Source: Desulfotignum sp.
GTDB taxonomy: Bacteria; Desulfobacterota; Desulfobacteria; Desulfobacterales; Desulfobacteraceae
Direction: 5' to 3'
Assembly: GCA_011390635.1 (NCBI GenBank)
Contig: JAABSA010000028.1
Location: 5,080-51,633, forward strand
DNA: 46,554 nt
How positions within the stretch are numbered: the first letter of the stretch is position 1; each line of letters opens with the position of its first letter. Of the stretch, positions 9,188 to 39,516 are shown piece after piece. Under the pieces are notes generated by a model, which had not been told where the DNA came from, did not search any database, and saw only the letters and a program-made list of their open reading frames with translations. The position numbers were made by a program, and so were the translations under genes.

Positions 9188-9655
9188 ATGATTACAGAAT
9201 ACGGCATTGTTACCCAGGCCAGCGATGCCATGGCCTGGATTAAAACCAACCGGACCGCCACCTGTCAAGGATGTACGGCAAAAGACAGTTGCGGCACCAT
9301 GCACCGGGGTCAGGAAATGATGGTGGAAGTTCCCAATACCATTGGGGTTCAACCCGGGGACTCTGTGGTTATCGGCATTGAAACCAAACCGGTCATGCTG
9401 CTTACCTTTCTGGTATATGTGGTTCCCATTATCTGCCTGGTGACCGGAGCTCTTTTGGGGGACGCAGTGGCTCCCCTGATCCGGATCAATCCGTCATTTT
9501 TGGCCATGGTGCTTGGGTTTTCAGCATTTGGCGCTGCTTTTGTTGTACTCCATAAAAAATCTGATTTTTTTCATCAGAAGCAAGGATACAAACCCGTGCT
9601 TATCCGAAAAACAAAGTCCAAGGTCCCGGCCTCCTGCCAGACTGATCCAAAATAA
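9188..9655 (+). CDS. rseC: SoxR-reducing system protein RseC family, Rnf-associated
   Basis: 155 residues. Members are inner-membrane proteins with an N-terminal Cys-rich cytoplasmic part and two transmembrane helices, often next to rnf/rsx genes, where they are thought to help maturation or redox control. Here the Cys motif is CQGCTAKDSCG (about residues 28-38), followed by GVQPGDSVVIGI. Two hydrophobic helices follow (about 73-93 and 101-121), then a basic cytoplasmic tail. ATG 9188 is preceded by AAAGGAAAA at a somewhat long distance. It lies 96 bp upstream of the cytochrome that begins the rnf genes, which agrees with a role in assembling or regulating the complex. Confidence 0.85.
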   Translation: MITEYGIVTQASDAMAWIKTNRTATCQGCTAKDSCGTMHRGQEMMVEVPNTIGVQPGDSVVIGIETKPVMLLTFLVYVVPIICLVTGALLGDAVAPLIRINPSFLAMVLGFSAFGAAFVVLHKKSDFFHQKQGYKPVLIRKTKSKVPASCQTDPK

Positions 9656-9751: not shown

Positions 9752-10117
9752 ATGACATCACAACCACACCTGAAAGCAGCGGGTTTGATCATGGCCGTGT
9801 TTTTGATCACAGGAATTGTATGCTATGCCTCTTTTCCATCACCGCCCCCGGCTGAACCGATCCGATTGATGTTTCAAAACGATGCGGGCAAAGTGCTGTT
9901 CACCCACCAGACACATACCGAAGAATACTATCTGGACTGCATGGATTGCCATCACAACCTCATGGATGATGATGTGTACAATTGCAGCGAATGCCATGAA
10001 GAAACCGGTGATGAATACATGCTGTCACGGACGGATGCTTTTCATGAACAATGTATTGGTTGCCATGCAGACTATGGTGCAGGCCCGGTGGACTGTAATT
10101 CCTGTCATATGATGTAA
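9752..10117 (+). CDS. Membrane-anchored tetrahaem cytochrome c of the Rnf operon
   Basis: 121 residues. An N-terminal hydrophobic segment (about 9-28) serves as a signal or membrane anchor and sends the rest to the periplasm. Four CXXCH haem-binding motifs are present: CMDCH (63-67), CSECH (78-82), CIGCH (101-105) and CNSCH (115-119). Extra histidines (52, 55, 68, 98) could supply the sixth ligands, as in cytochromes c3/c7. It is the first gene before rnfC (70 bp). Multihaem cytochromes accompany Rnf in several Desulfobacterota and, as MmcA, in Methanosarcina, where they exchange electrons with the complex. By analogy this protein would pass electrons between Rnf and the periplasmic cytochrome pool. 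Confidence 0.92.
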   Translation: MTSQPHLKAAGLIMAVFLITGIVCYASFPSPPPAEPIRLMFQNDAGKVLFTHQTHTEEYYLDCMDCHHNLMDDDVYNCSECHEETGDEYMLSRTDAFHEQCIGCHADYGAGPVDCNSCHMM

Positions 10118-10187: not shown

Positions 10188-11453
10188 ATGATTAAACGAT
10201 CTTTTTTTGCTCTATCCAGACCCAGGCTGACCTATGACCTGCTTGAACCGGATCCTTTAGAGCCGCAGACGATTCCCGTACCAGATCTTATCACACTGTT
10301 TTTGACTGAGAGCATTGACAGTAAAAGACCGGCGCTGATCAAAAAAGGCGACCCGGTCGAGAAAGGGCAGAAACTGGTGCTTTACGAAGACAGCACCGCT
10401 TATGCCGTTTCTCCTGTGGCAGGCACCATAAAAATGATTGATAGCTATTCAGATGATTTTGGCGCCATAGCCACCTGCATCATCATTGCCCATGATCCGG
10501 TCAGAACATCTCAAGCACAATCCATGGAAATGTCAGAGGATATATCCTTTGCTGCGGCACACCTGCTGAAACTGCCCGGGGCCCCCCCTTTTGACATCCT
10601 GGCTGATGAAAATGTCAACATCACTACCATTGTTATCACCGGTGCAGACACAGACCTTTTGACCACCACCTCCCAGTATGTAACCACCTCCCATATCCGG
10701 GATCTGGAACAGGGGGCCAAAATACTCAAACAGATCACCAATGTTTCCAGAATCTGCATTACCCTGCCTGAATCCCTTAACGGTAATGCCCCTACTGCTT
10801 CCCTCCAGGTGTTGCAAACCGGGACTGTATACCCTGATACCCTGCCGGCCATGATCATGAAAGATCATTTGGACCAAATTCTTCCTGCCGGTAAAACCCC
10901 CGAGGAAATGGGGGTGTGTTTTATCCGGGCGGAAGCGGTTGTGTCTCTGGCCCGGGCCTTTGCTGCCAAAGCATATATATTTGAAAAACATGTCACCCTT
11001 GTTGACAAAAACGCCAGCCGGCATCGGATAAAAGCGGTTATCGGCACCCCATTGAGCAACATATTCAGCCAACTGGACATCCAGGTCAATGACCAGGACA
11101 GAATTATCATTGGCGGCCCCATGCGCGGATATGCCACATTCACCGTCCACCATCCGGTGACACCGGATATGGATACGGTTGTGGTCCAGGACCAGAGAAT
11201 CATCCCGAAAATTTCAGACACCCCCTGTGTCAACTGCGGCAAATGTGTCCAGATCTGCCCGGCAGACATCCAGGTCAACCTGCTGGTGCGTTTTCTGGAG
11301 ACCAACCAGTATGAAGAAGCCACAGATAAATACGATCTTGACGCCTGTATCGAATGCGGATTATGTACCTATGTGTGTACGTCACAGATTGCCCTGGGCC
11401 AGTATATCCGGCTGGGGAAACATGAACTGCGCAAACTGCGAGCAGATGTTTAA
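10188..11453 (+). CDS. rnfC: Rnf complex subunit RnfC, without recognisable NADH/FMN site
   Basis: 421 residues, peripheral subunit. The C-terminus has two [4Fe-4S] motifs, CVNCGKCVQICPAD (from Cys347) and CIECGLCTYVCTSQ (from Cys387). The overall RnfC order is kept: an N-terminal barrel/biotinyl-like part (KGDPVEKGQKL, SPVAGTIK), a central domain, and the conserved GTPL and IIIGGPMRG blocks. The motifs that normally hold FMN and NADH are changed. The Gly-rich GGAGFPTHVKL-type segment reads LPGAPPFDIL (around 131), the NGAECEP segment reads TGADTD (151-156), and YPQGGEKQLI reads YPDTLPAMIM (from 215). Start: AAGGA lies 8 nt before ATG 10188; the earlier ATG 10128 has no ribosome binding site. 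It is followed closely by rnfD. Confidence 0.92.
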   Translation: MIKRSFFALSRPRLTYDLLEPDPLEPQTIPVPDLITLFLTESIDSKRPALIKKGDPVEKGQKLVLYEDSTAYAVSPVAGTIKMIDSYSDDFGAIATCIIIAHDPVRTSQAQSMEMSEDISFAAAHLLKLPGAPPFDILADENVNITTIVITGADTDLLTTTSQYVTTSHIRDLEQGAKILKQITNVSRICITLPESLNGNAPTASLQVLQTGTVYPDTLPAMIMKDHLDQILPAGKTPEEMGVCFIRAEAVVSLARAFAAKAYIFEKHVTLVDKNASRHRIKAVIGTPLSNIFSQLDIQVNDQDRIIIGGPMRGYATFTVHHPVTPDMDTVVVQDQRIIPKISDTPCVNCGKCVQICPADIQVNLLVRFLETNQYEEATDKYDLDACIECGLCTYVCTSQIALGQYIRLGKHELRKLRADV

Positions 11454-11467
11454 AAGGGAGACTGCCC

Positions 11468-12433
11468 ATGAATAACACCAAACTCACCGTTTCCCATGCA
11501 CCATTCTGGCATGATGGAGATAACCTGTTTAAAAAAAATCTAAACTTTATGCTGGCTCTTCTGCCGGCCGCCATTTTCGGTATCCTTCAATTTGGTGCTC
11601 CGGCACTCGGAGTAATGGCCCTATCCCTTTCCTGTGCCATGCTCTGGGAACTTGTAATAAACCTTGTTTCAAAAAAACCCGCAACCATTGGTGACCTGGA
11701 AGCTGCCGTCATTGGATTATTGTTCGGCATGATGCTGCCGGCCATCACCCCCTGGTGGCTCATTGTGGTGGGTACTTTTGTGGCAGTATTTGTAGGAAAA
11801 ATGATATTCGGCGGTATTGGATCCAGTCCATTTAATCCCACCCTGCTGGGTATGGCCGTCCTTATGATGTCCTGGAAAATGTTTTTTGATTTTGATACGG
11901 CCTATGTGGATTATGAATTTGCCTTTACAGCCCTGGCCCCCCTGGCAGCGGTGAAAACCCAGGGAGCTGCTGCCGCAGACCTGTTTACATTGGGAGATCT
12001 GTTCATGGGCCGGGAAGTGGGGGCTGTCGGTGCCACCTTTGGCCTGGGCCTGATCATCGGCGGCATCTACCTGATTTTACGAGGCTATGCAAGATGGGAA
12101 TTATCCGTATCCTTTATTGCCGGCATTCTGATAACCGCCTTTCTGTTCCATGCTGCCAGCCCTCAAAACTATGCCGGTCCCCTGTTTCACCTGCTGTCGG
12201 GATACACCCTGCTGGGGGCTTTTTTCCTGATCACGGAAAGCGCATCTTCGCCGGTGAACAGGATTCCCATGCTCCTTTACGGATTTTTAGGGGGGGTAGT
12301 GATCATTCTCATGAGAAATATTGGCGCTTATGCTGACGGTACAATACTGGCCATCCTGCTGGTAAATGTTGTAAGCCCGCTGTTGGACAATATCAGACCA
12401 AATGCTTTGGGAAGGGGTATGAACAATGCGTGA
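11468..12433 (+). CDS. rnfD: Rnf complex membrane subunit RnfD
   Basis: 321 residues with about ten hydrophobic helices; family of NqrB/RnfD, the ion-translocating membrane subunit that usually carries covalent FMN. Recognisable blocks: NFMLALLPAAIFGI, GDLEAAVIGLLFGMMLP, GGIGSSPFNPTLLGMAVL, FFLITESASSPVN and the Asn-Ile-Arg-Pro tail. The place of the flavin motif SGAT-(P/A)L reads FAFTALAPLA, so the acceptor Thr (Thr154) is there but the residues that the flavin transferase ApbE recognises before it are not typical. It starts 14 bp after rnfC with a GGGAG site and overlaps rnfG by 8 bp. Confidence 0.93.
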   Translation: MNNTKLTVSHAPFWHDGDNLFKKNLNFMLALLPAAIFGILQFGAPALGVMALSLSCAMLWELVINLVSKKPATIGDLEAAVIGLLFGMMLPAITPWWLIVVGTFVAVFVGKMIFGGIGSSPFNPTLLGMAVLMMSWKMFFDFDTAYVDYEFAFTALAPLAAVKTQGAAAADLFTLGDLFMGREVGAVGATFGLGLIIGGIYLILRGYARWELSVSFIAGILITAFLFHAASPQNYAGPLFHLLSGYTLLGAFFLITESASSPVNRIPMLLYGFLGGVVIILMRNIGAYADGTILAILLVNVVSPLLDNIRPNALGRGMNNA

Positions 12434-13010
12434 AATGATAAGCATGATTGTTGTTTTGACTTTGCTTGCCTCTGTTTCCGGAGGTCTTCTGGCAGCGGTC
12501 AAATCAGGCACCGAACTGAGAATTGAAGAACAGGTGTTGAAATTTCAAAAAGCCCCGGCCATTGAGTCCCTGTTTTCCGATGTAACCAATGATCCGCTCA
12601 AAGAGCGTTTTACGCTGGATACGGGAGACAGGACCCTGCAGATATTTCCGGGAAAGATGAAAGACGGTTCCCGGGCCGTTGCCTTTGAAACCTCAGGCAA
12701 AGGGGGCTATGGTGGGGATATTGGGCTGATGGTGGGGATTAACGTAGATTCAGACCAGCTGGTGGGTGCCCGGGTTACCACCCATGCGGAAACCCCGGGC
12801 CTGGGTTCCCGGGCCAAGGATGATCTGACCTTTGTTTCCCAGTTTAACAGCAGGCCGCTGGATGCAAACCTGGCCCTGAAAGCCGACAACGGCTCCATAG
12901 ATGCCATATCCGGCGCCACCGTGACTTCCAGGGCAGTTACCCGGGCTGCTATCCAGGCCCAGGAGCTTTACAGTCAACTGAAACCTGAAATTCTAAAACA
13001 GATCCAATAA
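12426..13010 (+). CDS. rnfG: Rnf complex subunit RnfG with covalent FMN site
   Basis: 194 residues. One N-terminal membrane helix (about 4-24) anchors a periplasmic FMN-binding domain. The flavinylation motif SGATVTSRAV is intact; Thr165 is the expected FMN acceptor through a phosphoester bond made by ApbE. The stretch ETPGLGSRAKDD is also typical. The gene overlaps rnfD by 8 bp, so translation is probably coupled. With the tetrahaem cytochrome on the same side of the membrane, RnfG is the most likely cytochrome partner. Confidence 0.95.
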   Translation: MREMISMIVVLTLLASVSGGLLAAVKSGTELRIEEQVLKFQKAPAIESLFSDVTNDPLKERFTLDTGDRTLQIFPGKMKDGSRAVAFETSGKGGYGGDIGLMVGINVDSDQLVGARVTTHAETPGLGSRAKDDLTFVSQFNSRPLDANLALKADNGSIDAISGATVTSRAVTRAAIQAQELYSQLKPEILKQIQ

Positions 13011-13034: not shown

Positions 13035-13643
13035 ATGGCACAATCCTTGGCTAAAGAATTTACGAAGGGACTATGGGCTGAGATACCTCCTTTCAGGCTT
13101 GTGCTGGGACTCTGCCCCACACTTGCTGTGACCAAATCTGTTGAAAACGGCATTGGCATGGGACTTGCCACCACCTTTGTGCTGGTTTTCTCCAACCTTT
13201 TAATATCGCTGCTGCGCAATGTGATTCCCCCGAAAGTCCGTATTGCCTGTTATATTGTCATCATCGCCACCTTTGTAACCATTGTGGAACTGGTCATGCA
13301 GGCCTATACTTATCCATTGTTCCTGACTCTGGGTATCTTTATCCCATTGATCGTGGTCAACTGCATCGTACTGGGCCGGGCAGAGGCATTTGCCAGTAAG
13401 AACACGCCGGTGCTGGCTGTTGCAGACGGACTTGGCATCGGCATCGGATTTACGCTTTCCCTTGCCTCCCTGGGTGCTGTGCGGGAAATTATTGGGGCCG
13501 GCACCATCACCATCTGGGGAGGGAATCCGGTGTTTGCAGTGGGAGACTGGTATCATCCCTTCTCCTTTATGGTGGAAGCACCCGGTGCTTTTGTGGCTTT
13601 AGGACTGATGCTGGCAGGCATGAACCTGATCGGTAAGAAATAA
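13035..13643 (+). CDS. rnfE: Rnf complex membrane subunit RnfE
   Basis: 202 residues with six predicted helices; homologous to RnfA and NqrD. It keeps the family cysteines: GLCPTLAVT with Cys27 and VNCIVLGRAEAFAS, which in Rnf/Nqr bind the intramembrane [2Fe-2S] cluster shared with RnfA. GGAG upstream (AAGGAG, 13019-13024) precedes ATG 13035. It lies 24 bp after rnfG and 11 bp before rnfA. Confidence 0.95.
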   Translation: MAQSLAKEFTKGLWAEIPPFRLVLGLCPTLAVTKSVENGIGMGLATTFVLVFSNLLISLLRNVIPPKVRIACYIVIIATFVTIVELVMQAYTYPLFLTLGIFIPLIVVNCIVLGRAEAFASKNTPVLAVADGLGIGIGFTLSLASLGAVREIIGAGTITIWGGNPVFAVGDWYHPFSFMVEAPGAFVALGLMLAGMNLIGKK

Positions 13644-13654
13644 GGAGCGCATCA

Positions 13655-14227
13655 ATGGAACTTTTTGAACTTGCCATCGGCAGTATTTTCATCAACAATA
13701 TCATCCTGGCCCAGTTCCTGGGAATATGCCCCTTTATCGGCACCTCAAAAAAAATGGAAACCGCCGTGGGGATGGCCATGGCAGTTGTTTTTGTCATGGT
13801 AATGGCGGGCATGATCACCTGGTCGGTGGACACCTTCCTTCTCAAAGCCTTGAATGTGGAATATCTGCGTACCTTGTCCTTTATTCTGGTCATTGCCTCT
13901 CTGGTTCAGTTTGTGGAAATGTTTTTAAAAAAAAGCATCCCCGGTCTGTATGCGGGCCTTGGAATTTTTCTGCCCTTGATCACAACCAACTGCGCTGTCA
14001 TGGGTACCTGTCTTTTGAATATCGGCAATGAATACGATTTTACCAGTGCTTTGGTATCAGCATTTTCCTACGCCCTTGGATTCGGCCTGGCTTTGGTCCT
14101 GTTTGCCGGAGTCAGAGAGCGCGTCAATCTGGGACGGGTACCCGGACCGCTGCAGGACACCTCCATAGGTCTTATCACCGCCGGTATCATTGCCCTGACC
14201 TTTACCTCTTTCAGGGGGATGGTATAA
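13655..14227 (+). CDS. rnfA: Rnf complex membrane subunit RnfA
   Basis: 190 residues, six helices, full length. Cys25 in LGICPFIGTS and the Cys in TTNCAVMGTCLL are the conserved ligands of the intramembrane [2Fe-2S] cluster formed with RnfE. AAGGAG precedes ATG 13655. In the common gene order rnfCDGEAB the next gene would be rnfB; here only 19 bp separate rnfA from the mltG frame and no rnfB follows. A candidate rnfB begins at 46488. Confidence 0.95.
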   Translation: MELFELAIGSIFINNIILAQFLGICPFIGTSKKMETAVGMAMAVVFVMVMAGMITWSVDTFLLKALNVEYLRTLSFILVIASLVQFVEMFLKKSIPGLYAGLGIFLPLITTNCAVMGTCLLNIGNEYDFTSALVSAFSYALGFGLALVLFAGVRERVNLGRVPGPLQDTSIGLITAGIIALTFTSFRGMV

Positions 14228-14246
14228 AAGATAGCAGGGGGATACC

Positions 14247-15260
14247 ATAAACCCGGTTAAAATCAGCATAAAGATTCTTGCGGGACTCTTTGTGGCCGGG
14301 GGTCTGATTTTCGGTGGCAGCGGGTTCTGGGTCTGGAAAATGCTGCACACGCCCAGTGCAGCAGATGACAGCCAGGTTGTCTTTACCATCCATCCAGGCC
14401 AGACCCTGAAACAGATCGCAGCTGCACTTGAGTCCCGGGGCCTGGTATCAGATGCGTTTTTGTTCACATGGTATGCCCGGTATAAAAAAGCCGGCACCCG
14501 CCTTCCGGCTGGTGAATATCTTCTGCCGGCAAACCTGACACCGGTTCAGATCCTGGAGCAGCTTGTAAAAGGAAAAGTCAGGCTCTACCGGCTTACGATT
14601 CCCGAAGGCCTGAACATGGATGAAACTGCAGCCCTTGTTGCAGCAGCCGGGTTTTGTGATGCAAAAACATTTCTGGATCTGTGCACGGATCAGGAATTTA
14701 TCGCTGCCCTTTCCGTGCCATCCCACACCCTGGAAGGATTTTTGTTTCCAGATACCTATTTTTTTCCAAAATCCACCGCCTGCCGCCGGGTGATTAAAAA
14801 AATGGTGAACACTTTTTTTACCGTTTTCACACCCCAATGGCAGGAACGTGCAGAAACCATGGGATTTACCCTCCAGGAGATCGTCACCCTGGCATCCATG
14901 ATTGAAAAAGAGGCCGGAATTGCTTCCGAACGTCCCCTGATCGCCTCGGTATTTCACAACCGCCTGGCAAAAAAAATGCGCATGGAAAGTGATCCCACGG
15001 TCATTTACGGGGACCAGGACTTTGATGGCCGGATCAGAACCAGACACCTGCGCAGAAAAACCGACTACAACACCTACCAGATGCACGGACTTCCTAAAGG
15101 CCCCATTGCCAGTCCCGGCGCAAAGGCACTTGAGGCCACATTATTCCCTGCCCAAAGCGATTATCTGTTTTTTGTATCCAAAAACGATAAAACCCATCAT
15201 TTTTCCAAAACCCTGACAGAACATAACCGGGCCGTACGAAAATACCAGTTGAACCAGTAA
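14247..15260 (+). CDS. mltG: Endolytic murein transglycosylase MltG
   Basis: Inner-membrane YceG/MltG enzyme that cuts nascent glycan strands. The catalytic region ASMIEKEAG-(I)-ASERPLIASVFHNRL, followed by MRMESDPTVIYG, is present; a LysM-like part (about 45-100, HPGQTLKQIAAALESRGLV) precedes it. The start is uncertain. The frame opens at a stop 12 bp upstream and contains no ATG or TTG before the domain. An ATA codon at 14247 lies 5 nt after AGGGGG and would give a complete N-terminal membrane helix and 337 residues, close to the E. coli length. GTG 14292 is the first conventional start, but it would cut the helix. It lies 19 bp after rnfA and is probably cotranscribed. Confidence 0.88.
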   Translation: MNPVKISIKILAGLFVAGGLIFGGSGFWVWKMLHTPSAADDSQVVFTIHPGQTLKQIAAALESRGLVSDAFLFTWYARYKKAGTRLPAGEYLLPANLTPVQILEQLVKGKVRLYRLTIPEGLNMDETAALVAAAGFCDAKTFLDLCTDQEFIAALSVPSHTLEGFLFPDTYFFPKSTACRRVIKKMVNTFFTVFTPQWQERAETMGFTLQEIVTLASMIEKEAGIASERPLIASVFHNRLAKKMRMESDPTVIYGDQDFDGRIRTRHLRRKTDYNTYQMHGLPKGPIASPGAKALEATLFPAQSDYLFFVSKNDKTHHFSKTLTEHNRAVRKYQLNQ

Positions 15261-21078: not shown

Positions 21079-21206
21079 GCCGTGAGGCATCCTTCTGGAA
21101 GTCAATCACATGTAACCATCCGGGGGCGGCATCTTTGCCGAACGGTCAGGAAATTTGTTTATTGCGCCAGCCCGGTGGATACCGAACAAGACAGGTACAT
21201 TTTATT

Positions 21207-21235
21207 TTGACTTTTGGACAGGTATGGATGACAAT
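21207..21235 (+). promoter_or_regulatory. Putative promoter of the dehydrogenase-CBS gene
   Basis: TTGACT (21207-21212) and GACAAT (21230-21235) with a 17-nt spacer, 38 bp before the start codon. Divergent from the purH promoter. Confidence 0.5.
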
Positions 21236-21272
21236 AATAAAATGGAATTTACCCCGTTCAAAGGAGAGCACC

Positions 21273-23150
21273 ATGATTCCATTAAAAATGAAAGATCTGC
21301 TGGAAAAGGCTCTGCCCGACAGCGTGTGGCACAACCGCCTGATCAAGGACGGCCCGCTTCGATTCATGGAGTTCGGCCCCCTGGATGTTGACCGGCTCCA
21401 GCGCTTAGGGATAAGGGTGGACCGTCTGGGCCCCAGGCTGGTGGTCTGCATGTGGGATGAAGACAGCCCTCTGCCCATCGGCGGTTTTCTGGTGGTGGAC
21501 AACCTGGCCATGGGACAGCCCGCCATGGGCGGCACAAGGATGCTGCCCGACATCACCCCGGACATCATCCACAACCTGGCCCGGGGAATGACCCTGAAAA
21601 ATGCTGCCGCTGACCTGCCCTTCGGTGGTGGAAAATCCGGTATTGTCCGGCCGGAACAGATCTCTTCTTCCGAGCGCCGGGCCATTGTCACAGGTTTCGG
21701 CCGGCTGCTGAGAAGGTACACAAAAATCTATATTCCAGGGCCGGATGTGGGCACCAATGATGCTGACATGAAAATTTTTGCCATTGAGAACGGGCTCAAC
21801 AATGTGGTATCCAAGCCTGCAGACATGGGGGGAAACCGCATTGATGAACTGGGCGGGGCTGCCAACGGGGTGGTGGTGGCGTTCAAAACCCTGGTGGAAC
21901 ACCTGCCCCGCCTGGGGAACCTGCCCCAGTTCCGGAATCTGACCATTCCAAAACCGGAAGACCGATCCATCCTCATCCAGGGATTCGGGGCGGTGGGCGC
22001 CCATGTGGCACGGATTTTCCATGACTATGACCCGGACATCCCTCCTGTCATCAAAGGCATCAGTGATGCCACAGGCTTTTTGTTACACCCGGACGGCCTG
22101 CCCTGGCAGCAGCTGTTTGACCTATGGAAACAATTTGGTGAAGTAACCCAGCACTATTTTCATGACACCCTGCTCCACGGCCCAAAAACGGAGGCAGACA
22201 ACACCATTTATTCCAACTGTGCCGACAACCTGCTCATGGAATCGGCTTTCTGCCTGATACCGGCGTCACCAATTTCCAACTACCTGGATGTGGGGCCGTC
22301 CACCAGGCCTTCCATGACCGTGAACCGCATGGGCCAATGGCAGATGATCGTGGAAGGGGCCAATACCTATTCCCCCAACCCGGCCAAAAAAGCAGCCCGG
22401 CGGCGCATGGAACGTCATGTGTACCGGGACAAAGGCGTTCTCATTGCCACCGACTACCTGGTCAACTCCGGCGGGGTGATCTATGCGGCCCACGAACGCA
22501 TGATCCCCACACCGGAGGAGCTGCTGGTGCCCCGGGCAATGCTGGGTGACCCCGGTCAGGTGGATGCGTGGCTGGAAAAAAACCGGGACGTCTTTGCCGA
22601 CCTTGCGGAAATCCGGCGCAAAGCCGCCGTGGAAAAACTGGAAACCGTGATCCAGCGCAATATGGAAGAACTCATTGACGGCCTGTGCAAGGATGCGGAC
22701 AGCCTGCCCTGTGAAATTGCTGAAACCATCAGCATTCACCGCATCGCATCCATGGAAAAAACCAAAACCGCAAAAGATGTCATGGAAGAGGCCCCCACCA
22801 TCGGGGTGGACCGGCAGATCACCGATGCAGCGGATCTGCTGGTCAAGGCCCCTGTATCCATAGTCAATGTGGTATCAAAAAAAGGCAAGCTCATCGGCAT
22901 TGTCACCAACTGGGACATCACCAATGCCATGGCATCCCAACTCCCAATGGATGCACCCTTAACCCGGATCATGACGGCTGATGTAATCTTCACAGGACCG
23001 GATACCCCCATCCTTGACTGTGTCCGGATTCTGGAAAACCATGAAATATCGGCCATGCCCATTGTGGAAAATGATCAGGTGGTGGGCGTAATCTCCGGAG
23101 ATATCCTGGCAAAAAGAACCCTTTTCCGCCTGCTGCAGACCATGGATTAA
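21273..23150 (+). CDS. Glu/Leu/Phe/Val dehydrogenase-family enzyme fused to a C-terminal CBS domain pair
   Basis: 625 residues. The first about 470 belong to the glutamate dehydrogenase superfamily, which interconverts an amino acid and its 2-oxo acid with NAD(P). Visible features: MGGTRMLPDITPD, the catalytic Lys region LPFGGGKSGIV, YIPGPDVGTNDADM, and a Rossmann loop, LIQGFGAVGAHVARIF. From about 500, two CBS motifs follow: AKDVMEEAPTIGVDRQI with GIVTNWDI, and ILENHEISAMPIVENDQVVGVISGDIL. CBS pairs usually bind adenine nucleotides, so allosteric control by AMP/ATP or SAM is likely. The substrate amino acid cannot be told. AAGGAG lies 6 nt before ATG 21273; the longer frame from 21135 has no ribosome binding site. 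Confidence 0.9.
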   Translation: MIPLKMKDLLEKALPDSVWHNRLIKDGPLRFMEFGPLDVDRLQRLGIRVDRLGPRLVVCMWDEDSPLPIGGFLVVDNLAMGQPAMGGTRMLPDITPDIIHNLARGMTLKNAAADLPFGGGKSGIVRPEQISSSERRAIVTGFGRLLRRYTKIYIPGPDVGTNDADMKIFAIENGLNNVVSKPADMGGNRIDELGGAANGVVVAFKTLVEHLPRLGNLPQFRNLTIPKPEDRSILIQGFGAVGAHVARIFHDYDPDIPPVIKGISDATGFLLHPDGLPWQQLFDLWKQFGEVTQHYFHDTLLHGPKTEADNTIYSNCADNLLMESAFCLIPASPISNYLDVGPSTRPSMTVNRMGQWQMIVEGANTYSPNPAKKAARRRMERHVYRDKGVLIATDYLVNSGGVIYAAHERMIPTPEELLVPRAMLGDPGQVDAWLEKNRDVFADLAEIRRKAAVEKLETVIQRNMEELIDGLCKDADSLPCEIAETISIHRIASMEKTKTAKDVMEEAPTIGVDRQITDAADLLVKAPVSIVNVVSKKGKLIGIVTNWDITNAMASQLPMDAPLTRIMTADVIFTGPDTPILDCVRILENHEISAMPIVENDQVVGVISGDILAKRTLFRLLQTMD

Positions 23151-28834: not shown

Positions 28835-29794
28835 ATGGAAAAAATCAGACTCGCCCTTCTGGCAGGCGGCATTTCCTCTGAACGGTCCGTTTCTTTGAAC
28901 AGCGGCAACAAGGTATTTGATGCCCTTGACAAGGATAAATATGATATTTTGCGCTATGATCCAAAAACCGATCTCACACAACTGGTCATGGATGCCCCCA
29001 AAATCGATGCAGCCCTGATCATTCTCCACGGCCCCTTTGGAGAAGATGGCACGGTCCAGGGACTGCTGGATCTTCTGGATATCCCCTATCAGGGTGCCGG
29101 GGTCCTGGGGTCCGCTGTAGCCATGAACAAACTGTTGTCCAAACGCCTGTATAAAGGAGCGGATATCCCCACCCCCGCATTTCGGTCTTTTACCCCGAAT
29201 GATGCCGTTGACATTCCTGAACTGATCAGGGAACTGGGTCTGCCGCTGGTTGTAAAACCGGCCTGTGCAGGCTCCAGTGTCGGAATGACCATCGTCAAGA
29301 AAGAACCGGCTATGGAGCAGGCCATCCAGGAGGGCTTTTCCCATGATAACACCATTATCATTGAAGCCTATATCAAAGGCCTTGAACTCACCTGCGGGGT
29401 CCTGGGCAATGATGATCTCCAGGCCCTGCCGGTAATAGAAATCATACCAGGACAAGGCCATGAATATTTTGACTTTCAGGCCAAATATGTGGCAGGTGAA
29501 ACCGAAGAGATCTGTCCGGCCCGCATCGATTCCGAAACCACCCGCCGGGTCCAGGACCTGGCAGTCAAAGCCCACCAGGCCCTGTTCCTCAAAGGATATT
29601 CCCGCACCGACATGATGCTTACAGGAGAAGACCTTTTTGTTCTGGAAACCAATACGATCCCCGGTATGACTGCCACCAGTCTGTATCCCCAGTCTGCCAT
29701 GGCAGCCGGATATTCTTTTTCACAACTGCTTGACAAACTGATCCACCTGGCCATTGAAGAACACCAACATACAAATTTGAGGAGAAAAAAATGA
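28835..29794 (+). CDS. ddl: D-alanine--D-alanine ligase
   Basis: 319 residues. Joins two D-Ala with ATP for peptidoglycan synthesis. ATP-grasp blocks: LLAGGISSERSVSLNSG at the N-terminus, LHGPFGEDGTVQGLLDLLDI (about 66-85), LPLVVKPACAGSSVGMT, and VLETNTIPGMTATSLYPQSA at the C-terminus, with the metal-binding Glu and Asn. The usual EKxI-type loop is less typical. AAGGAAAA precedes ATG 28835; the frame runs 15 codons further upstream inside the SHOCT gene without a better start. It overlaps the next gene by 4 bp (ATGA), suggesting coupled translation with the purine gene. Confidence 0.92.
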   Translation: MEKIRLALLAGGISSERSVSLNSGNKVFDALDKDKYDILRYDPKTDLTQLVMDAPKIDAALIILHGPFGEDGTVQGLLDLLDIPYQGAGVLGSAVAMNKLLSKRLYKGADIPTPAFRSFTPNDAVDIPELIRELGLPLVVKPACAGSSVGMTIVKKEPAMEQAIQEGFSHDNTIIIEAYIKGLELTCGVLGNDDLQALPVIEIIPGQGHEYFDFQAKYVAGETEEICPARIDSETTRRVQDLAVKAHQALFLKGYSRTDMMLTGEDLFVLETNTIPGMTATSLYPQSAMAAGYSFSQLLDKLIHLAIEEHQHTNLRRKK

Positions 29795-31554
29795 ACATCC
29801 TTGTAGTGGGCGGTGGCGGCCGCGAACACACACTGGTATGGAAAATCAGCCAGAGCCCCATGGTTGAAAAAATTTACTGCGCACCGGGCAATGCCGGAAC
29901 CCGGGATTTGGCAGAATCCGTTGCCATTGATGCCGAAGATATCCAGGCCCTGGCTGCGTTTGCCAGAGACAATGACATTGATCTCACCGTGGTGGGCCCC
30001 GAAGGCCCTCTTGTCAAGGGCATTGTCGATGTGTTCCAGGAAAAGGGGCTTGACGTGTTCGGCCCCAGCCGGGCCGCTGCCCGTTTAGAGGGCAGCAAGG
30101 TTTTCTCCAAAAACCATATGCAGAAATATAATATCCCCTGCGCCATGGGAAAAGCGTTTACCGATCCTGCCAAAGCCAAGGCCTATGCCAGATTTTTAGG
30201 GGCTCCCTGCGTGGTCAAGGCCGACGGCCTGGCTGCCGGCAAAGGGGTGATCATTTGTGCCACCCTGGATGAGGCATACCATGCTATTGACGAAATGATC
30301 ACAGAAAATCGGTTCGGCGATGCCGGTGCCACAGTGGTGGTGGAAGAATGCCTGCAGGGAGAAGAAGCATCCTTCATTGTACTGACCGACGGCAAAACCG
30401 TGCTGCCCCTGCCCGAATCCCAGGACCACAAGCGGGCCATGGACAATGATGAAGGACCCAACACCGGCGGCATGGGGGCCTATTCCCCGGCCCCGGTACT
30501 GGATCACATGCTGCGCACCAAAGCCATGAACGAAGTGATGATCCCTGCTGTCCAGGGCATGGCTAAAGAAGGCACCCCGTTCAAGGGAGTACTCTATGCC
30601 GGGCTCATGGTAACCCAGGACAAAATCAAGGTGCTGGAGTTCAACACCCGTTTAGGGGATCCGGAAACCCAGCCCATTCTTATGCGCCTTAAAAATGATC
30701 TGGTACCGCTGATGGAAGCCTGCTGCAACGAGACGCTGCACCAGCATTCCGCGAAAATTGATCCCAGGGCTGCGGTGTGCGTGGTGGTTTCTGCGGGCGG
30801 ATATCCCGGACCGTATGAAAAAGGTCATGCCATCTTGGGCCTGGATGCAGCCAACAATGTAAAAAACACCATGGTCTTTCATGCCGGCACTGCCATGGAT
30901 GGTGACAAGGTGATCACGGCAGGGGGCCGGGTCCTGGGGGTCACCAGCCTGGGGGATACTGTGCAGCAGGCCATTGACACTGCCTATGAAGCCTGTGCCA
31001 AAATCTCGTTTACCGATCATTTCCATCGCAAAGACATAGGAGCCAAAGCAGTCAAACGCCTGTCCGTCCCGCCGAAAGTCGGGGTGATCATGGGATCGGA
31101 TTCCGATTTTGGAGTCATGGAAAAAGCCCTGGTCATTTTAAAACAGTTTGATATTCCGTATTACGTCACCGTAGCATCGGCCCACCGAACACCGGACCAG
31201 GCAGCAAGGCTTGCGTCACAGGCAAAACAAACCGGCATACAGGTGCTGATCTGCGGGGCCGGGCATGCGGCCCACCTGGCCGGGGTGATTGCGGCCCACA
31301 CAACCCTTCCGGTGCTGGGGGTCCCCATAGACTCATCTGCACTCCAGGGGCTGGATGCCCTGCTGGCAACTGTGCAGATGCCCCCTGGCATTCCGGTGTC
31401 CACCATGGCCATCGGCAAATCAGGCGCCCATAATGCCGGCATTTTTGCGGCCCAGATCATCGGTCTGTCAGATCCGGTGGTGGCTGAAAAACTGCTTGTA
31501 TTCAAGCAGACCATGGCTGCCAAAGTAGCAAAAAAGGCTGCCTCTTTTGCCTGA
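29791..31554 (+). CDS. purD: PurD-PurE fusion: phosphoribosylamine--glycine ligase and AIR carboxylase/mutase
   Basis: 587 residues, one open chain. Residues 1 to about 425 form PurD (GAR synthetase), an ATP-grasp enzyme: VVGGGGREHTLVWK, VVGPEGPLVKGI, CVVKADGLAAGKGV, DNDEGPNTGGMGAYSP, LEFNTRLGDPETQ. After a short linker (KRLSVPPK), from about 430, comes PurE: GVIMGSDSDFGVMEKA, ASAHRTPDQAARL, GAGHAAHLAGVIAA, VQMPPGIPVSTMAIGKSGA. In E. coli PurE the third block reads GAGGAAHLPGM. Typical lengths (about 425 and 160) add up, so both halves look complete. The two steps are the second and sixth of the purine path, so they are not consecutive. It overlaps ddl by 4 bp and the next gene by 8 bp. Confidence 0.94.
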   Translation: MNILVVGGGGREHTLVWKISQSPMVEKIYCAPGNAGTRDLAESVAIDAEDIQALAAFARDNDIDLTVVGPEGPLVKGIVDVFQEKGLDVFGPSRAAARLEGSKVFSKNHMQKYNIPCAMGKAFTDPAKAKAYARFLGAPCVVKADGLAAGKGVIICATLDEAYHAIDEMITENRFGDAGATVVVEECLQGEEASFIVLTDGKTVLPLPESQDHKRAMDNDEGPNTGGMGAYSPAPVLDHMLRTKAMNEVMIPAVQGMAKEGTPFKGVLYAGLMVTQDKIKVLEFNTRLGDPETQPILMRLKNDLVPLMEACCNETLHQHSAKIDPRAAVCVVVSAGGYPGPYEKGHAILGLDAANNVKNTMVFHAGTAMDGDKVITAGGRVLGVTSLGDTVQQAIDTAYEACAKISFTDHFHRKDIGAKAVKRLSVPPKVGVIMGSDSDFGVMEKALVILKQFDIPYYVTVASAHRTPDQAARLASQAKQTGIQVLICGAGHAAHLAGVIAAHTTLPVLGVPIDSSALQGLDALLATVQMPPGIPVSTMAIGKSGAHNAGIFAAQIIGLSDPVVAEKLLVFKQTMAAKVAKKAASFA

Positions 31555-34731: not shown

Positions 34732-34873
34732 AGACTTTAAAACAATGAATGTGCTGAACAGAACCTTTACAACCTGATTTTTCCAACTCACCCAAAGAAT
34801 TTTTTGGAATTATTTCTGATTGACAATCCAGCAGACAACTGATACGGCAATAAAAAAATATAAGGAGGGCATT

Positions 34874-37804
34874 GTGAAACTGAAACTCACCGTTTTTTTG
34901 CTTTTATCTGTGCTTTCAGCTTATATTCCCGCATGGGCTGGTCTAACAAAAACAGAAGTATCCCAGCTGTATGTATCCATTTTTGGACGTGCATCAGAAG
35001 GCCAGGGAAATACCTACTGGCAGACATTCGAAGACATGATATCCGCAGCAGATGCCATGCTCGACACACAGGCTGCCCGGGATTATTTCGGAACCAGTTT
35101 GAATTCAGATCAGGCGTTTATTGATCACATCTATTTGAACACCTTGAATAAAGATTACTGGGATGACCCCACAGGAATCACTTACTGGATAAATGAACTC
35201 AACAGCGGTAAAACCCGGGGGGAAGTGGTGACTCAACTGGTGAGAGTGATAGGAAATTACGCCCCGGGCCGCCCGCATTACGACCCTGACGACGCTGCCA
35301 CTGTTACCGCCTACCATCAGTTTACCAATCGTGTCGCCGTTTCCGATTATATGGCGGATGCGATATGGCCTCCGCCATCTGACTGGAAAACGGTTACCCA
35401 TTTCGGACTGGGGGCCTTGCATGTGACAGACGAAGCCGCATCTGTTTATGCGGCTCAGCAGATAATCGATACCTTTTCCGATGTGCCCGCTGCCGACCTT
35501 TTTATTGCTGATTATACCCCACGAAACGGGCCTGCCGGTTCTCCTGTCTTTCTTCAATTACAAGACCCGGTTCTGGAAACCGATGAACTGGAGGGTTTTT
35601 TTAATGACCAGGAAATCGCTGTTACCGGCATATCGGAAAATGTTGTTCAGGTCATGATTCCCAATGACGTTGCTTCCGGGTATATTGCAGTGAAGGCTGG
35701 AAATTCGGTCAGTAATGCCGTATATTTTGATACAGAACAGATGATCGTTACTCCACTGATGACCGCAGATGTCAATCCATCTTCCCAGGAACAGTCAATC
35801 AGCCATAACGGTGAAATCACTGTCACCCTGCCCCCGGACCTGCTGGACCAGGAAAGGACCTTGACCCTGTCGCAGGTAACCGGTGCACCGGCAAATTCAA
35901 TTAATCCCTTTGCTGCAAACATTGTTTTTGATGTCAGCCTGGAAGGAATGGAGCAACTTGCCGATTATATAGAAATCACAGTCAAATATGATCCAATGGC
36001 CCTGCATCCGGATTATCCGGCAGCCGATCAATTGACAGCCATGCGGTGGGATGAGGCTGAACAGTCCTGGCTTCCCCTGCCTTATCAGGTAAATAGCGAG
36101 TCCCAGACCCTCAGTTTTTATACAGATCATTTGAGCCTGCTTGGAATTGGAATACTTGTGACTGGATCAGCAGCGGTCGGCATTCCTGTAACCTGGGTGG
36201 GGGAAAAACTTTTGAATGATGTTTATGTTACTCCTGGTTTGTTTGAAGGCAATTTCAGACTTCTTTACAGCAAATCATCCATACTGGAACATCCCAATTT
36301 AAATGATACAGCATGGTCAAAGACAACCTATAAAAACCATATTTTCCCTTTGGCGGCATACCGGCTGGAGCATCCTCATTTTATCCAGGATATAGGAAAT
36401 CTTCTTGAAACAGCATTGTCAAACTATGTCGATGTGCATGGTTTTCAAGATCCCATTTTAGAGCCCGGCAGTTTATGGGGCATCTCGGTTAATCCGATTA
36501 CCGTCAAAGTGGATTCATGGTGGGTGTGGCTTGCCGGAGATCCCAATTATGAAAAACTGTTTGAAAACATACATCTGCCCACCCTGTATTTAAACGATTT
36601 TGATCCGCCGGAGTATTTTGCCTATGGGACCATGGCCCATGAACTGTTTCACCGGATACAAGCTGAATATTACGGGGTATCCGGATTTTTATATCCTTCC
36701 TGGAAATGGTGGATTGAAGCTGCTGCTGAATATGCCGCATACAGGATCGCATGGCCGGGCAAACAGCTGGATGGTCATCTAAATGGCATGGAAGCGGATT
36801 TTTTCAGTTACCCCATCAATCATACCGGTGTGCCATCCGGCTGGGATGATAGAGCATATGAGTATGCGGCATCGGTTTTTATACAGTTTCTTGTGGAAAA
36901 AAAGGGACTTGATTTCAGGGAAATGGTGGAATATGTCGCCCAGGGTGATCCGTTGTCCAGACTGGATGAGTTTGTGTTGTCGAAACATTCCGTGTCCTTG
37001 AAAGACTATTATGCCGAATTTGCGGCCTGGGCTATTTTTTCTCAGAACGGGTTCATGGAAAAACTCGGGTTCAGTGCAGCCGATATCGCCGGACCGAATG
37101 GAAAAGACAGCTTTTCAATACCTGAAAATCAAACTCTGACTATTTCAGTTGCCGCTGAAAGTGATGACATGGTTGTCAATGTGTATATTACGGAAGAAAA
37201 CAAACGGTTTTCCGGCGATGTCACCCCTTCTCTGCAAGGCACGTTAAAAAACGGGGACAGCCTTGATATGCCAGTGCGTAATTTAGGTCAATCCAACCTA
37301 TTGTATTTACTGGCGGTCACCGGCAAGGCACAAGACACACTTGAGCCGGATTTCATCGGTGATACTGTAAGATATATTCCTCAGAAAGAACTGACGGTGA
37401 CCGTTTCTAATCAAGACAAGAATCCTGTGGAGAAAATACAGCGTTCTTTTACTCTGGAAGGAAGCTATCTGGCAAAACTGTGGCCGGTGGAATTAGACAT
37501 CCTGCCGCAAGAGCTCCCGCCGGGGAATTCATTCAGCTTTACCGGTAAGCGCAGAGACGGGATAGCCCGAAATGGGACGATGACCTTCTACAATGACGGC
37601 ACCCATGAGTTCAGTGTCCAGGATGCCGACGGTCAGGTGAATGCAGGCGGCAGCGGCACTTGGAGCCAATATGGTTCTTCTATGACTATTCTTTTCAGCG
37701 GTGTCATGTCCCCGTGGTATGGGCAGGTTACTGAAGAGAGTCCGGACGGGTTTGTACTTGCCGATACCGGGCATGGTACGTATACTTTTACAAGACAGCA
37801 GTAA
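34874..37804 (+). CDS. Exported 976-residue protein with DUF4214-like region and zincin-like HELFH motif
   Basis: A signal peptide at about 1-23 (KLTVFLLLSVLSAYIPAWAG) predicts export. Residues about 28-180 resemble DUF4214 repeats (VSQLYVSIFGRASEGQGNTYW; HIYLNTLNKDYWDDPTGITYW). Residues about 215-290 look IPT/TIG-like. About 300-430 is a beta-rich part with ITVKYDPMALHPDYPAADQL. A central domain follows with H589-E-L-F-H593 in MAHELFHRIQAEYYG and a Glu (E615) in WWIEAAAEYAAY 22 residues later, a spacing seen in gluzincin metallopeptidases. The last about 200 residues are beta-rich. No type I secretion or LPXTG signal is visible. Start: GTG 34874 has AAGGAGGG 5 nt upstream. Peptidase activity is inferred. 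It lies alone in the accessory region. Confidence 0.8.
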   Translation: MKLKLTVFLLLSVLSAYIPAWAGLTKTEVSQLYVSIFGRASEGQGNTYWQTFEDMISAADAMLDTQAARDYFGTSLNSDQAFIDHIYLNTLNKDYWDDPTGITYWINELNSGKTRGEVVTQLVRVIGNYAPGRPHYDPDDAATVTAYHQFTNRVAVSDYMADAIWPPPSDWKTVTHFGLGALHVTDEAASVYAAQQIIDTFSDVPAADLFIADYTPRNGPAGSPVFLQLQDPVLETDELEGFFNDQEIAVTGISENVVQVMIPNDVASGYIAVKAGNSVSNAVYFDTEQMIVTPLMTADVNPSSQEQSISHNGEITVTLPPDLLDQERTLTLSQVTGAPANSINPFAANIVFDVSLEGMEQLADYIEITVKYDPMALHPDYPAADQLTAMRWDEAEQSWLPLPYQVNSESQTLSFYTDHLSLLGIGILVTGSAAVGIPVTWVGEKLLNDVYVTPGLFEGNFRLLYSKSSILEHPNLNDTAWSKTTYKNHIFPLAAYRLEHPHFIQDIGNLLETALSNYVDVHGFQDPILEPGSLWGISVNPITVKVDSWWVWLAGDPNYEKLFENIHLPTLYLNDFDPPEYFAYGTMAHELFHRIQAEYYGVSGFLYPSWKWWIEAAAEYAAYRIAWPGKQLDGHLNGMEADFFSYPINHTGVPSGWDDRAYEYAASVFIQFLVEKKGLDFREMVEYVAQGDPLSRLDEFVLSKHSVSLKDYYAEFAAWAIFSQNGFMEKLGFSAADIAGPNGKDSFSIPENQTLTISVAAESDDMVVNVYITEENKRFSGDVTPSLQGTLKNGDSLDMPVRNLGQSNLLYLLAVTGKAQDTLEPDFIGDTVRYIPQKELTVTVSNQDKNPVEKIQRSFTLEGSYLAKLWPVELDILPQELPPGNSFSFTGKRRDGIARNGTMTFYNDGTHEFSVQDADGQVNAGGSGTWSQYGSSMTILFSGVMSPWYGQVTEESPDGFVLADTGHGTYTFTRQQ

Positions 37805-39060: not shown

Positions 39061-39516
39061 ATGGAAGATCGTTTGAGTGAGATACTTTCACCCTACAAAG
39101 GAAAACGGGATGCGCTCATCCCGATTCTGCAGAAAGTACAGGCAGAGCTGGGTTATCTGCCGGATGAAGCCATGCTTGAAATAGCCAGGGTAACCGGCCT
39201 GCCTGAAAGCAGGGTATTTGCAGTGGCATCCTTTTATGCCCAGTTCCGGTTCACCCCCAGGGGCAAGCATTCCTTTATGGTATGCCGGGGTACTGCATGC
39301 CATGTCCGGGGAGCGGAAAAAATTCTGGAAGAAACAGAAAGGGCGTTGGGCATTGTTGAGGGAGAAACCACTGAAGACAAAGAATATACCCTGGAAACCG
39401 TGGCATGTATCGGTTGCTGCGCCCTGGCACCCTGTGTGATGATCGACGAGGATGTGGAAGCCAAACTGACTCCCAAAATGGTTTCGGAAATTATCGACAG
39501 GAGGAGAGCACAATGA
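39061..39516 (+). CDS. NuoE-like [2Fe-2S] subunit of a formate dehydrogenase/diaphorase
   Basis: 151 residues. Thioredoxin-like ferredoxin of the NuoE/HndA/HylA family. The four cluster ligands are in CRGTACHVRG (about 80-89) and CIGCCALAPC (about 120-129), and the N-terminal helical part (LIPILQKVQAELGYLPDEAM) is typical. It would hand electrons between the FMN site of the NuoF-like partner and its other Fe-S centres. AAGGAGGGAGACAG precedes ATG 39061. It overlaps the next gene by 4 bp (ATGA). With the NuoF-like protein and FdhA (convergent, 2 kb on) it most likely forms an NAD-linked, possibly electron-bifurcating, formate dehydrogenase. Confidence 0.93.
   Translation: MEDRLSEILSPYKGKRDALIPILQKVQAELGYLPDEAMLEIARVTGLPESRVFAVASFYAQFRFTPRGKHSFMVCRGTACHVRGAEKILEETERALGIVEGETTEDKEYTLETVACIGCCALAPCVMIDEDVEAKLTPKMVSEIIDRRRAQ

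Follow-up and report, generated by a model that had tools for sequence, protein, structure and literature searches.

The Desulfotignum DNA analyzed here, a stretch of 46,554 nucleotides (henceforth the window), carries an rnf operon which, judged by its protein sequences, is a variant of Rnf2, the cytochrome-linked Rnf complex of the D. toluolica type, that has no RnfB and in which RnfD, as well as RnfC, has been stripped of its flavin site. The genes lie on the + strand in the order rseC-like, tetraheme cytochrome, rnfC, rnfD, rnfG, rnfE, rnfA, mltG-like, with no rnfB among them. The interpretation that we favor, with slightly more belief than doubt, is that this RnfB-less complex moves electrons between a cytoplasmic iron-sulfur (Fe-S) carrier and a periplasmic c3 cytochrome; the carrier, the direction of transfer and the coupling to ion movement are what we infer. 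In every cytochrome-linked locus scored, the flavin sites of RnfC and RnfD are lost together, which offers a concrete and testable path in which electrons exit at RnfG; the loss in RnfC has already been published, whereas that in RnfD is less well described.

The evidence begins with RnfC and the cytochrome linked to it, whose features are the following.

9752-10117, + strand: tetraheme cytochrome c3-like protein, predicted to be periplasmic, with an N-terminal hydrophobic segment (Cytochrom_CIII, 50.3 bits).
10188-11453, + strand: rnfC, 421 amino acids (aa), without the canonical site for flavin mononucleotide (FMN) and reduced nicotinamide adenine dinucleotide (NADH) (open reading frame, Pfam, alignments to canonical RnfC).
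10572-10601, + strand: LPGAPPFDIL (residues 129-138), replacing the shortened glycine-rich FMN loop (RnfC alignments).
10638-10655, + strand: TGADTD (residues 151-156), replacing the (A/C)ECEP segment (RnfC alignments).
10830-10859, + strand: YPDTLPAMIM (residues 215-224), replacing the YPQG(G/A)EKQLI segment (RnfC alignments).
11226-11261, + strand: first [4Fe-4S] motif of RnfC, residues 347-358, with C347, C350, C353 and C357 (all eight cluster cysteines are kept in 46/46 cytochrome-linked RnfC).
11346-11378, + strand: second [4Fe-4S] motif, residues 387-397, with C387, C390, C393 and C397 (kept as the first, and in 9/9 other loci of the genus).

A sequence-only reading of the window had claimed that three segments of the FMN/NADH pocket are replaced in this RnfC, that both [4Fe-4S] motifs and the IIIGGPMRG block are retained, and that the gene is linked to a tetraheme cytochrome. 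All of this is borne out: the residues are as it gave them, IIIGGPMRG stands at 306-314, and the 121 aa cytochrome is a class III protein with four CxxCH motifs and nine histidines, which scores 54 bits against the NCBIfam TmcA model, under that model's cut-off of 114. The FMN domain Complex1_51K reaches only 16.2 bits on the window RnfC, against a cut-off of 31.2, and a Pfam search lists no SLBB domain in it at E ≤1; four canonical RnfC used as controls score 164.6, 166.5, 192.4 and 172.6 bits for Complex1_51K, with SLBB in all four. Three other RnfC of the clade described below score 15.6, 15.8 and, in the third case, nothing that was listed. The protein aligns along most of its length to the solved chains 7zc6_C, 9eri_C and 8ahx_C (E 1.4e-24 to 7.9e-22), and in multiple alignments the FMN loop is shortened and ECEP replaced. 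An AlphaFold model computed from 24 sequences (mean predicted local distance difference test score, pLDDT, 87.8) has the RnfC fold, and its top five Foldseek matches are RnfC of A. vinelandii, A. woodii and C. tetanomorphum (template modeling score, TM, 0.80-0.82), followed by NqrA at TM 0.68. Because this model holds no docked ligand, it is the sequence that argues for the loss of FMN; on that basis the window RnfC has no canonical FMN/NADH site and probably does not use NAD(H). A sequencing or frame error in RnfC is ruled out, the loss being common to 27/27 members of the clade. Nor does the genome show another canonical Rnf: the window gene is the only one in which RnfC_N exceeds its cut-off, and the other RnfD/NqrB-type gene sits in a Na+-translocating NADH:quinone oxidoreductase (NQR).

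How regularly this loss accompanies a cytochrome was read from a sample of 395 genomes of the phylum, 136 of which have an RnfC-like match at E 1e-10. The window RnfC belongs to a clade of 27 (itself included) that match it with E values no worse than 8e-75 and identities of 34-47 %, the next sequences being at most 31 % identical; every clade member has lost the FMN loop and ECEP segments, and one of them (L066; loci are numbered with L, genomes with G) still matches a loose pattern for the third segment. The phylum sample and a set of named contigs together make 98 loci, of which 97 RnfC were scored (L125 is a fragment) against three patterns; two or three hits count as "kept", fewer as "lost". 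A cytochrome gene lies upstream of 46 RnfC with lost motifs and of none with kept motifs; among those with no cytochrome, 30 have kept their motifs and 21 have lost them. In the scored loci a linked cytochrome always accompanies motif loss, and the converse fails. The test proposed by the sequence-only reading, whether such losses always occur together with the cytochrome gene, thus holds in one direction (46/46 cytochrome-linked RnfC have lost the motifs, 0/30 motif-bearing ones are linked) and breaks down in the other (21/97 lost with no cytochrome). On a tree of RnfD (103 rows) the cytochrome label requires four changes, and 52 of the 53 cytochrome-linked rows (all the bacterial ones) fall in a single group of 60 rows with support 100/99, where the window nests with the Desulfobacula locus L116, which carries an RnfB fusion gene, and with others.

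The second line of evidence comes from the remaining subunits.

11468-12433, + strand: rnfD (NQR2_RnfD_RnfE, 281 bits).
11927-11944, + strand: TALAPL in RnfD, against canonical (S/T)xATPL, the threonine of covalent FMN attachment being lost (Thr in 0/46 cytochrome-linked loci).
12426-13010, + strand: rnfG (NF045876 RnfG_DVU2794, 254.4 bits, cut-off 205).
12909-12920, + strand: flavinylation motif SGAT of RnfG, retained (Thr in 44/44 cytochrome-linked RnfG).
13035-13643, + strand: rnfE, cluster cysteines C27 and C110 retained (both in 41/41 cytochrome-linked RnfE).
13655-14227, + strand: rnfA, cluster cysteines C25 and C113 retained (both in 38/38 cytochrome-linked RnfA).

Across 115 aligned RnfD/NqrB-type proteins, the whole clade is devoid of the (S/T)xAT motif. 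Among the 95 loci with both RnfC and RnfD (L145 and L164, which have no RnfD, are excluded from the 97), all 46 that are cytochrome-linked are without the FMN threonine, which 28 of the 29 motif-bearing ones have, the lone exception (L165) reading SGAS, whose serine is still compatible with flavinylation. The 20 loci with lost RnfC motifs and an RnfD, and no cytochrome seen, have a T at the column in 12 cases and none in 8. Retention counts below 46 for the other subunits reflect loci in which no such protein was read, for example at contig ends. In the TD(P/Y)xTSP segment of RnfD the aspartate has become glutamate in most of the clade members listed; by its spacing this probably corresponds to the riboflavin/Na+ aspartate in the solved complexes. 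The genome has one ApbE flavin transferase gene (293 bits), which can flavinylate RnfG. We found no printed account of the RnfD FMN-site loss in cytochrome-linked Rnf in a literature search that covered few subscription papers.

The third line is the absence of RnfB, which, like the RnfD loss, the sequence-only reading had overlooked, however well its account of motif loss, cytochrome link and likeness to Methanosarcina has stood up. Two features mark the site.

14228-14291, + strand: rnfA/mltG junction, the site of an rnfB fusion gene of ~2.1 kb in sister genera (locus comparison).
14292-15260, + strand: mltG-like flanking gene, a landmark outside the complex, which we take to be mltG (conserved neighbor).

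In the phylum sample, 15 of the 26 other clade loci have after the rnf operon an RnfB fusion protein of ~690 aa, in which, in the five that were scanned, an N-terminal RnfB part (PF04060) is joined to Fer4_20 and Pyr_redox_2 domains resembling the small subunit of glutamate synthase. Of the other eleven loci, two (L047, L048) have a plain RnfB of ~270 aa divergently adjoining, one (L054) is broken and eight show none in the fetched stretch; six of these eight genomes carry the fusion elsewhere, and it was not found in G132 and G210. At the broken locus (L054:10384-10900, G254), frames of 92 and 129 aa after rnfA match the N- and C-terminal parts of the fusion, a broken rnfB in an operon that is otherwise complete and cytochrome-linked.

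The window's assembly (98 contigs, 4.09 Mb, 96.4 % complete) has no recognizable rnfB, in the operon or elsewhere, in searches with PF04060 and TIGR01944. The latter gave no match over its cut-off; the former gave only two open reading frames, neither of them RnfB-like and neither with an Fe-S domain of the ANCGGCG type. One, of 447 aa, presumably resembles a subunit of CO-dehydrogenase/acetyl-CoA synthase, and the other, of 272 aa, has a segment of that kind. The best match in this genome to the Rnf2 fusion covers residues 161-680 of 696, in a frame of 1615 aa at 44 % identity, and the RnfB start is missing from it. When the Desulfobacula fusion protein was searched against 59 genomes of the family, an Rnf2-type fusion (70-100 % identical) was found in 42 of the 48 genomes of other genera, five times only as contig-end pieces, and in none of the 11 genomes of the window's genus, ten of which have an RnfC (G435 gave no RnfC match). 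In all eight genus loci that span the junction rnfA directly abuts mltG, an agreement that rules out an assembly gap as the explanation for the missing gene, and the order rnfA-rnfB-mltG is seen in five separate sister genomes, with L116 and L289 counted as one. L290 (G412) represents a separate loss of rnfB, and in L291 rnfB was not seen within 1.2 kb after rnfA. The same literature search gave no printed account of a genus-wide excision of rnfB.

The genes that remain are under purifying selection, RnfC being the most relaxed. Nei-Gojobori ratios of nonsynonymous to synonymous substitution (dN/dS) are 0.03-0.29 from the cytochrome through rnfA when the window, L277 and L278 are compared with one another (three pairs), and lie below 0.3 for every comparable rnf gene and the cytochrome in six pairs within the genus. 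The median for RnfC is 0.257 in the RnfB-less genus (44 pairs) against 0.136 in RnfB-bearing relatives (12 pairs, those of 45 that passed the dS filter); the corresponding values are 0.125 (32) and 0.105 (16) for RnfD, and 0.112 (21) and 0.158 (44) for the cytochrome. These pairs share ancestry and the comparison is a hint, not a test; as such, RnfC appears to be partly released from constraint, RnfD only slightly, and the cytochrome not. RnfC is described as binding RnfB in A. woodii (PMC11889175).

In the solved Rnf complexes, as described in PMC11889175, electrons pass from RnfB to the RnfA/E cluster, then to RnfG-FMN, to RnfD-FMN and riboflavin, and through the Fe-S clusters and FMN of RnfC to NAD. 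In the cytochrome-linked clade both flavin-attachment sites beyond RnfG that the sequences reveal are missing, and those as far as RnfG are retained; this is most simply read as a path with its end in the periplasm, where RnfG would hand electrons to the cytochrome. The second half of the U-shaped path, by which electrons return from RnfG through RnfD and RnfC to NAD, would thus be replaced by an exchange between RnfG-FMN and the tetraheme cytochrome, and ion movement would be coupled at RnfA/E, as in other Rnf. In the fusion-bearing relatives RnfB may take its input from NAD(P)H or from ferredoxin. The window's genus has no RnfB, through which ferredoxin normally delivers its electrons, so that the input (or the output, should the complex run inward from a reduced c3 pool) would have to use a soluble carrier with no known docking subunit here; this ferredoxin-like carrier may meet the [2Fe-2S] cluster of RnfA/E directly, or else the Fe-S clusters of RnfC. 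The genome has 11 class III cytochrome domain matches on 7 contigs, the window cytochrome included, and the others are possible partners of the complex. An exit from RnfG to a cytochrome would agree with published models: the Rnf of M. acetivorans is reported to make no use of NAD(P) and is modeled as passing electrons from RnfG to a cytochrome (PMC4023990, PMC11024163), and two-subunit Rnf-like complexes, whose RnfD-like subunit has no FMN site, are proposed to send electrons outward (PMC10979944). The fuller proposition, that an Rnf core of five subunits works without RnfB as an NAD-independent, ion-coupled system, exchanging electrons with a soluble Fe-S carrier at the membrane core and with a c3 cytochrome at RnfG, we advance tentatively and regard as a minority possibility. 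If true, it would provide a living counterpart of the RnfB-less intermediate postulated between Rnf and NQR, and would make the Rnf path modular, with an exit at RnfG possible after the loss of RnfD-FMN and RnfC-FMN. The RnfB-less genus is in effect a natural deletion, which asks what input the membrane core needs and bears on the origin of NQR from Rnf.

Several observations weigh against this interpretation. The loci share ancestry and most of them entered the sample because they resemble the window, so they do not count as independent events. The 21 RnfC of 97 with motif loss and no linked cytochrome include NqrA-type proteins, a Mollicutes/Erysipelotrichaceae branch and Rnf of the same clade with no linked heme gene seen; the RnfD threonine is missing by column, again with no cytochrome, in L073, L082, L083, L123, L126, L144, L152 and L153, and L084 (EAETFL), where the T at the column is a misalignment, is also devoid of it. 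With L123 set aside (it ends at a contig edge, its upstream gene out of view), these RnfC and RnfD losses do not require a linked cytochrome. Two cytochrome-linked RnfC outside the clade pass the Complex1_51K cut-off (L143, of the Methanosarcinaceae, 59.8 bits; L071, 35.7 bits), and a non-covalently bound FMN in RnfD is conceivable. Without RnfB, RnfA/E has no known subunit to supply it with electrons, and the entry step is a guess; nor does a path that ends at RnfG explain why the RnfC clusters are so strictly retained. The cytochrome dhcA, linked to Rnf in D. alaskensis, is reported to be dispensable for Rnf-dependent growth (PMC4215793; see also PMC4841214), which may tell against the model, and Rnf2 has been described as a link between the ferredoxin and NADH pools (PMC11887813, 2025).

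The retained clusters lead to the first alternative, that RnfC is the only cytoplasmic port: the carrier would exchange electrons with the RnfC [4Fe-4S] clusters, the path would continue through RnfD riboflavin and RnfG-FMN to the cytochrome, and RnfA/E would serve ion gating only. Eight cysteines conserved in all cytochrome-linked RnfC, and in the nine other RnfB-less genus loci, would be needless for a merely structural subunit, and the RnfB fusion is gone; but RnfD has no covalent FMN, which in the solved complexes bridges RnfG and riboflavin, and the constraint on RnfC has relaxed more than that on any other subunit. We consider this alternative unlikely.

A second alternative is that the complex is a normal Rnf2 whose input subunit is encoded elsewhere, an unlinked RnfB-like protein having been missed in the assembly, which at 96.4 % completeness leaves some room for it. 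Six of the 11 genus genomes do encode, in an open frame, an unlinked RnfB-GltD-like protein (684-724 aa, 35-41 % identical to the Rnf2 fusion), a seventh (G443, L262:1381-3072) has the gene in a broken frame, and six genomes of other families hold the true fusion apart from the operon (L197, L199, L201, L202, L204, L206). The window's genome, however, has no such unlinked protein, nor any TIGR01944 match or ANCGGCG-type domain of the kind sought above, and the Rnf2-type fusion is absent from all 11 genomes of the genus; moreover, the unlinked type coexists with an operon-borne fusion in G161, G315, G333 and G134 and is probably a separate system. A missed subunit acting in trans is judged quite improbable. 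Ten clade genomes also have an RnfB-GltD fusion near an RseC-like gene (L194-L196, L198, L200, L203, L205, L208-L210), 33-37 % identical to the Rnf2 fusion C-terminally, and no other rnf genes were matched in the fetched stretch.

That the operon is a functionless, decaying remnant left by the loss of RnfB is very improbable: an RnfC dN/dS about twice that of RnfB-bearing relatives, the two short frames to which the fusion gene of G254 is reduced and the genome (G435) with no RnfC match speak for it, but every genus locus read has preserved its other cofactor residues, and the cytochrome and RnfC, D, G, E and A all have the low dN/dS given above for the window, L277 and L278.

The conserved block opens with one further gene.

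9188-9655, + strand: rseC-like gene (RseC_MucC, Pfam PF04246, 110.7 bits).

It lies before the cytochrome gene in 9/9 other loci of the genus and in 9/9 loci of other genera (L285-L293). Elsewhere the window encodes a NuoF-like protein whose Complex1_51K domain is complete (39405-41426; 144.9 bits), a contrast to the degenerate RnfC; an open frame of 994 aa with no Pfam match at 1e-10 (34820-37804); GARS (phosphoribosylglycinamide synthetase) domains fused to an AIR carboxylase domain (29791-31554); and a Glu/Leu/Phe/Val dehydrogenase with a C-terminal match to a CBS domain (21135-23150).

Among known systems the closest is the Tol2-type Rnf (Rnf2) of D. toluolica, found also in D. multivorans, for which the RnfC loss and a large RnfB are already described (PMC5109826); the RnfC loss, which the sequence-only reading had presented as new, is thus prior knowledge, reported also in PMC11887813. 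As in the window, the Tol2-type RnfC is without NADH-oxidoreductase and SLBB domains and a small cytochrome belongs to the cluster (PMC5109826), and the fusion-bearing Desulfobacula contigs have the same gene order and RnfD clade; unlike the window, which has no rnfB, the Tol2 type has an RnfB of ~700 aa with NAD-binding sites. Rnf2 is reported to belong to the core genome of the Desulfobacteraceae and to be abundant and constitutively formed in six strains (PMC11887813), and how it works is said to await experiment (PMC5109826). Desulfotignum phosphitoxidans resembles the window in having a cytochrome gene followed by rnfCDGEA, with no rnfB in the genes listed by PMC4046663; the likeness is one of gene order. 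The likeness to Methanosarcina that had been suggested for the window also holds: in the Rnf-MmcA system of Methanosarcina acetivorans a multiheme cytochrome comes first in the operon and NAD(P) is reportedly not used (PMC11024163, PMC4023990), and the RnfC and RnfD of the Methanosarcinaceae locus L143 are without the motifs by pattern and by alignment, though, as noted, its RnfC passes the Complex1_51K cut-off. MmcA, by contrast with the class III, four-CxxCH cytochrome of the window, is a heptaheme protein related to octaheme tetrathionate reductase, and RnfB is present there.

With canonical Rnf (A. woodii, C. tetanomorphum, A. vinelandii) the window complex shares the RnfC fold, the RnfA/E cysteines and the RnfG SGAT, and differs in the RnfC FMN/NADH site, the RnfD FMN threonine and RnfB. 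The loss of RnfB, together with that of the NAD/FMN site in the RnfC homologue, has been proposed as the path to NQR (PMC4014512). A complete NQR is encoded elsewhere in the window's genome, and the RnfD/NqrB tree places L166, L169 and L170 beside it. NqrA is described in the literature as cofactor-free, but that of this NQR operon still has two C-terminal Fe-S-type cysteine motifs (L296:6821-8152, G000:C25; RnfC-type match 364-430). Na+-NQR is set apart from the window complex by NqrF, which is not among the seven operon proteins, and the window RnfC keeps its eight Fe-S cluster cysteines.

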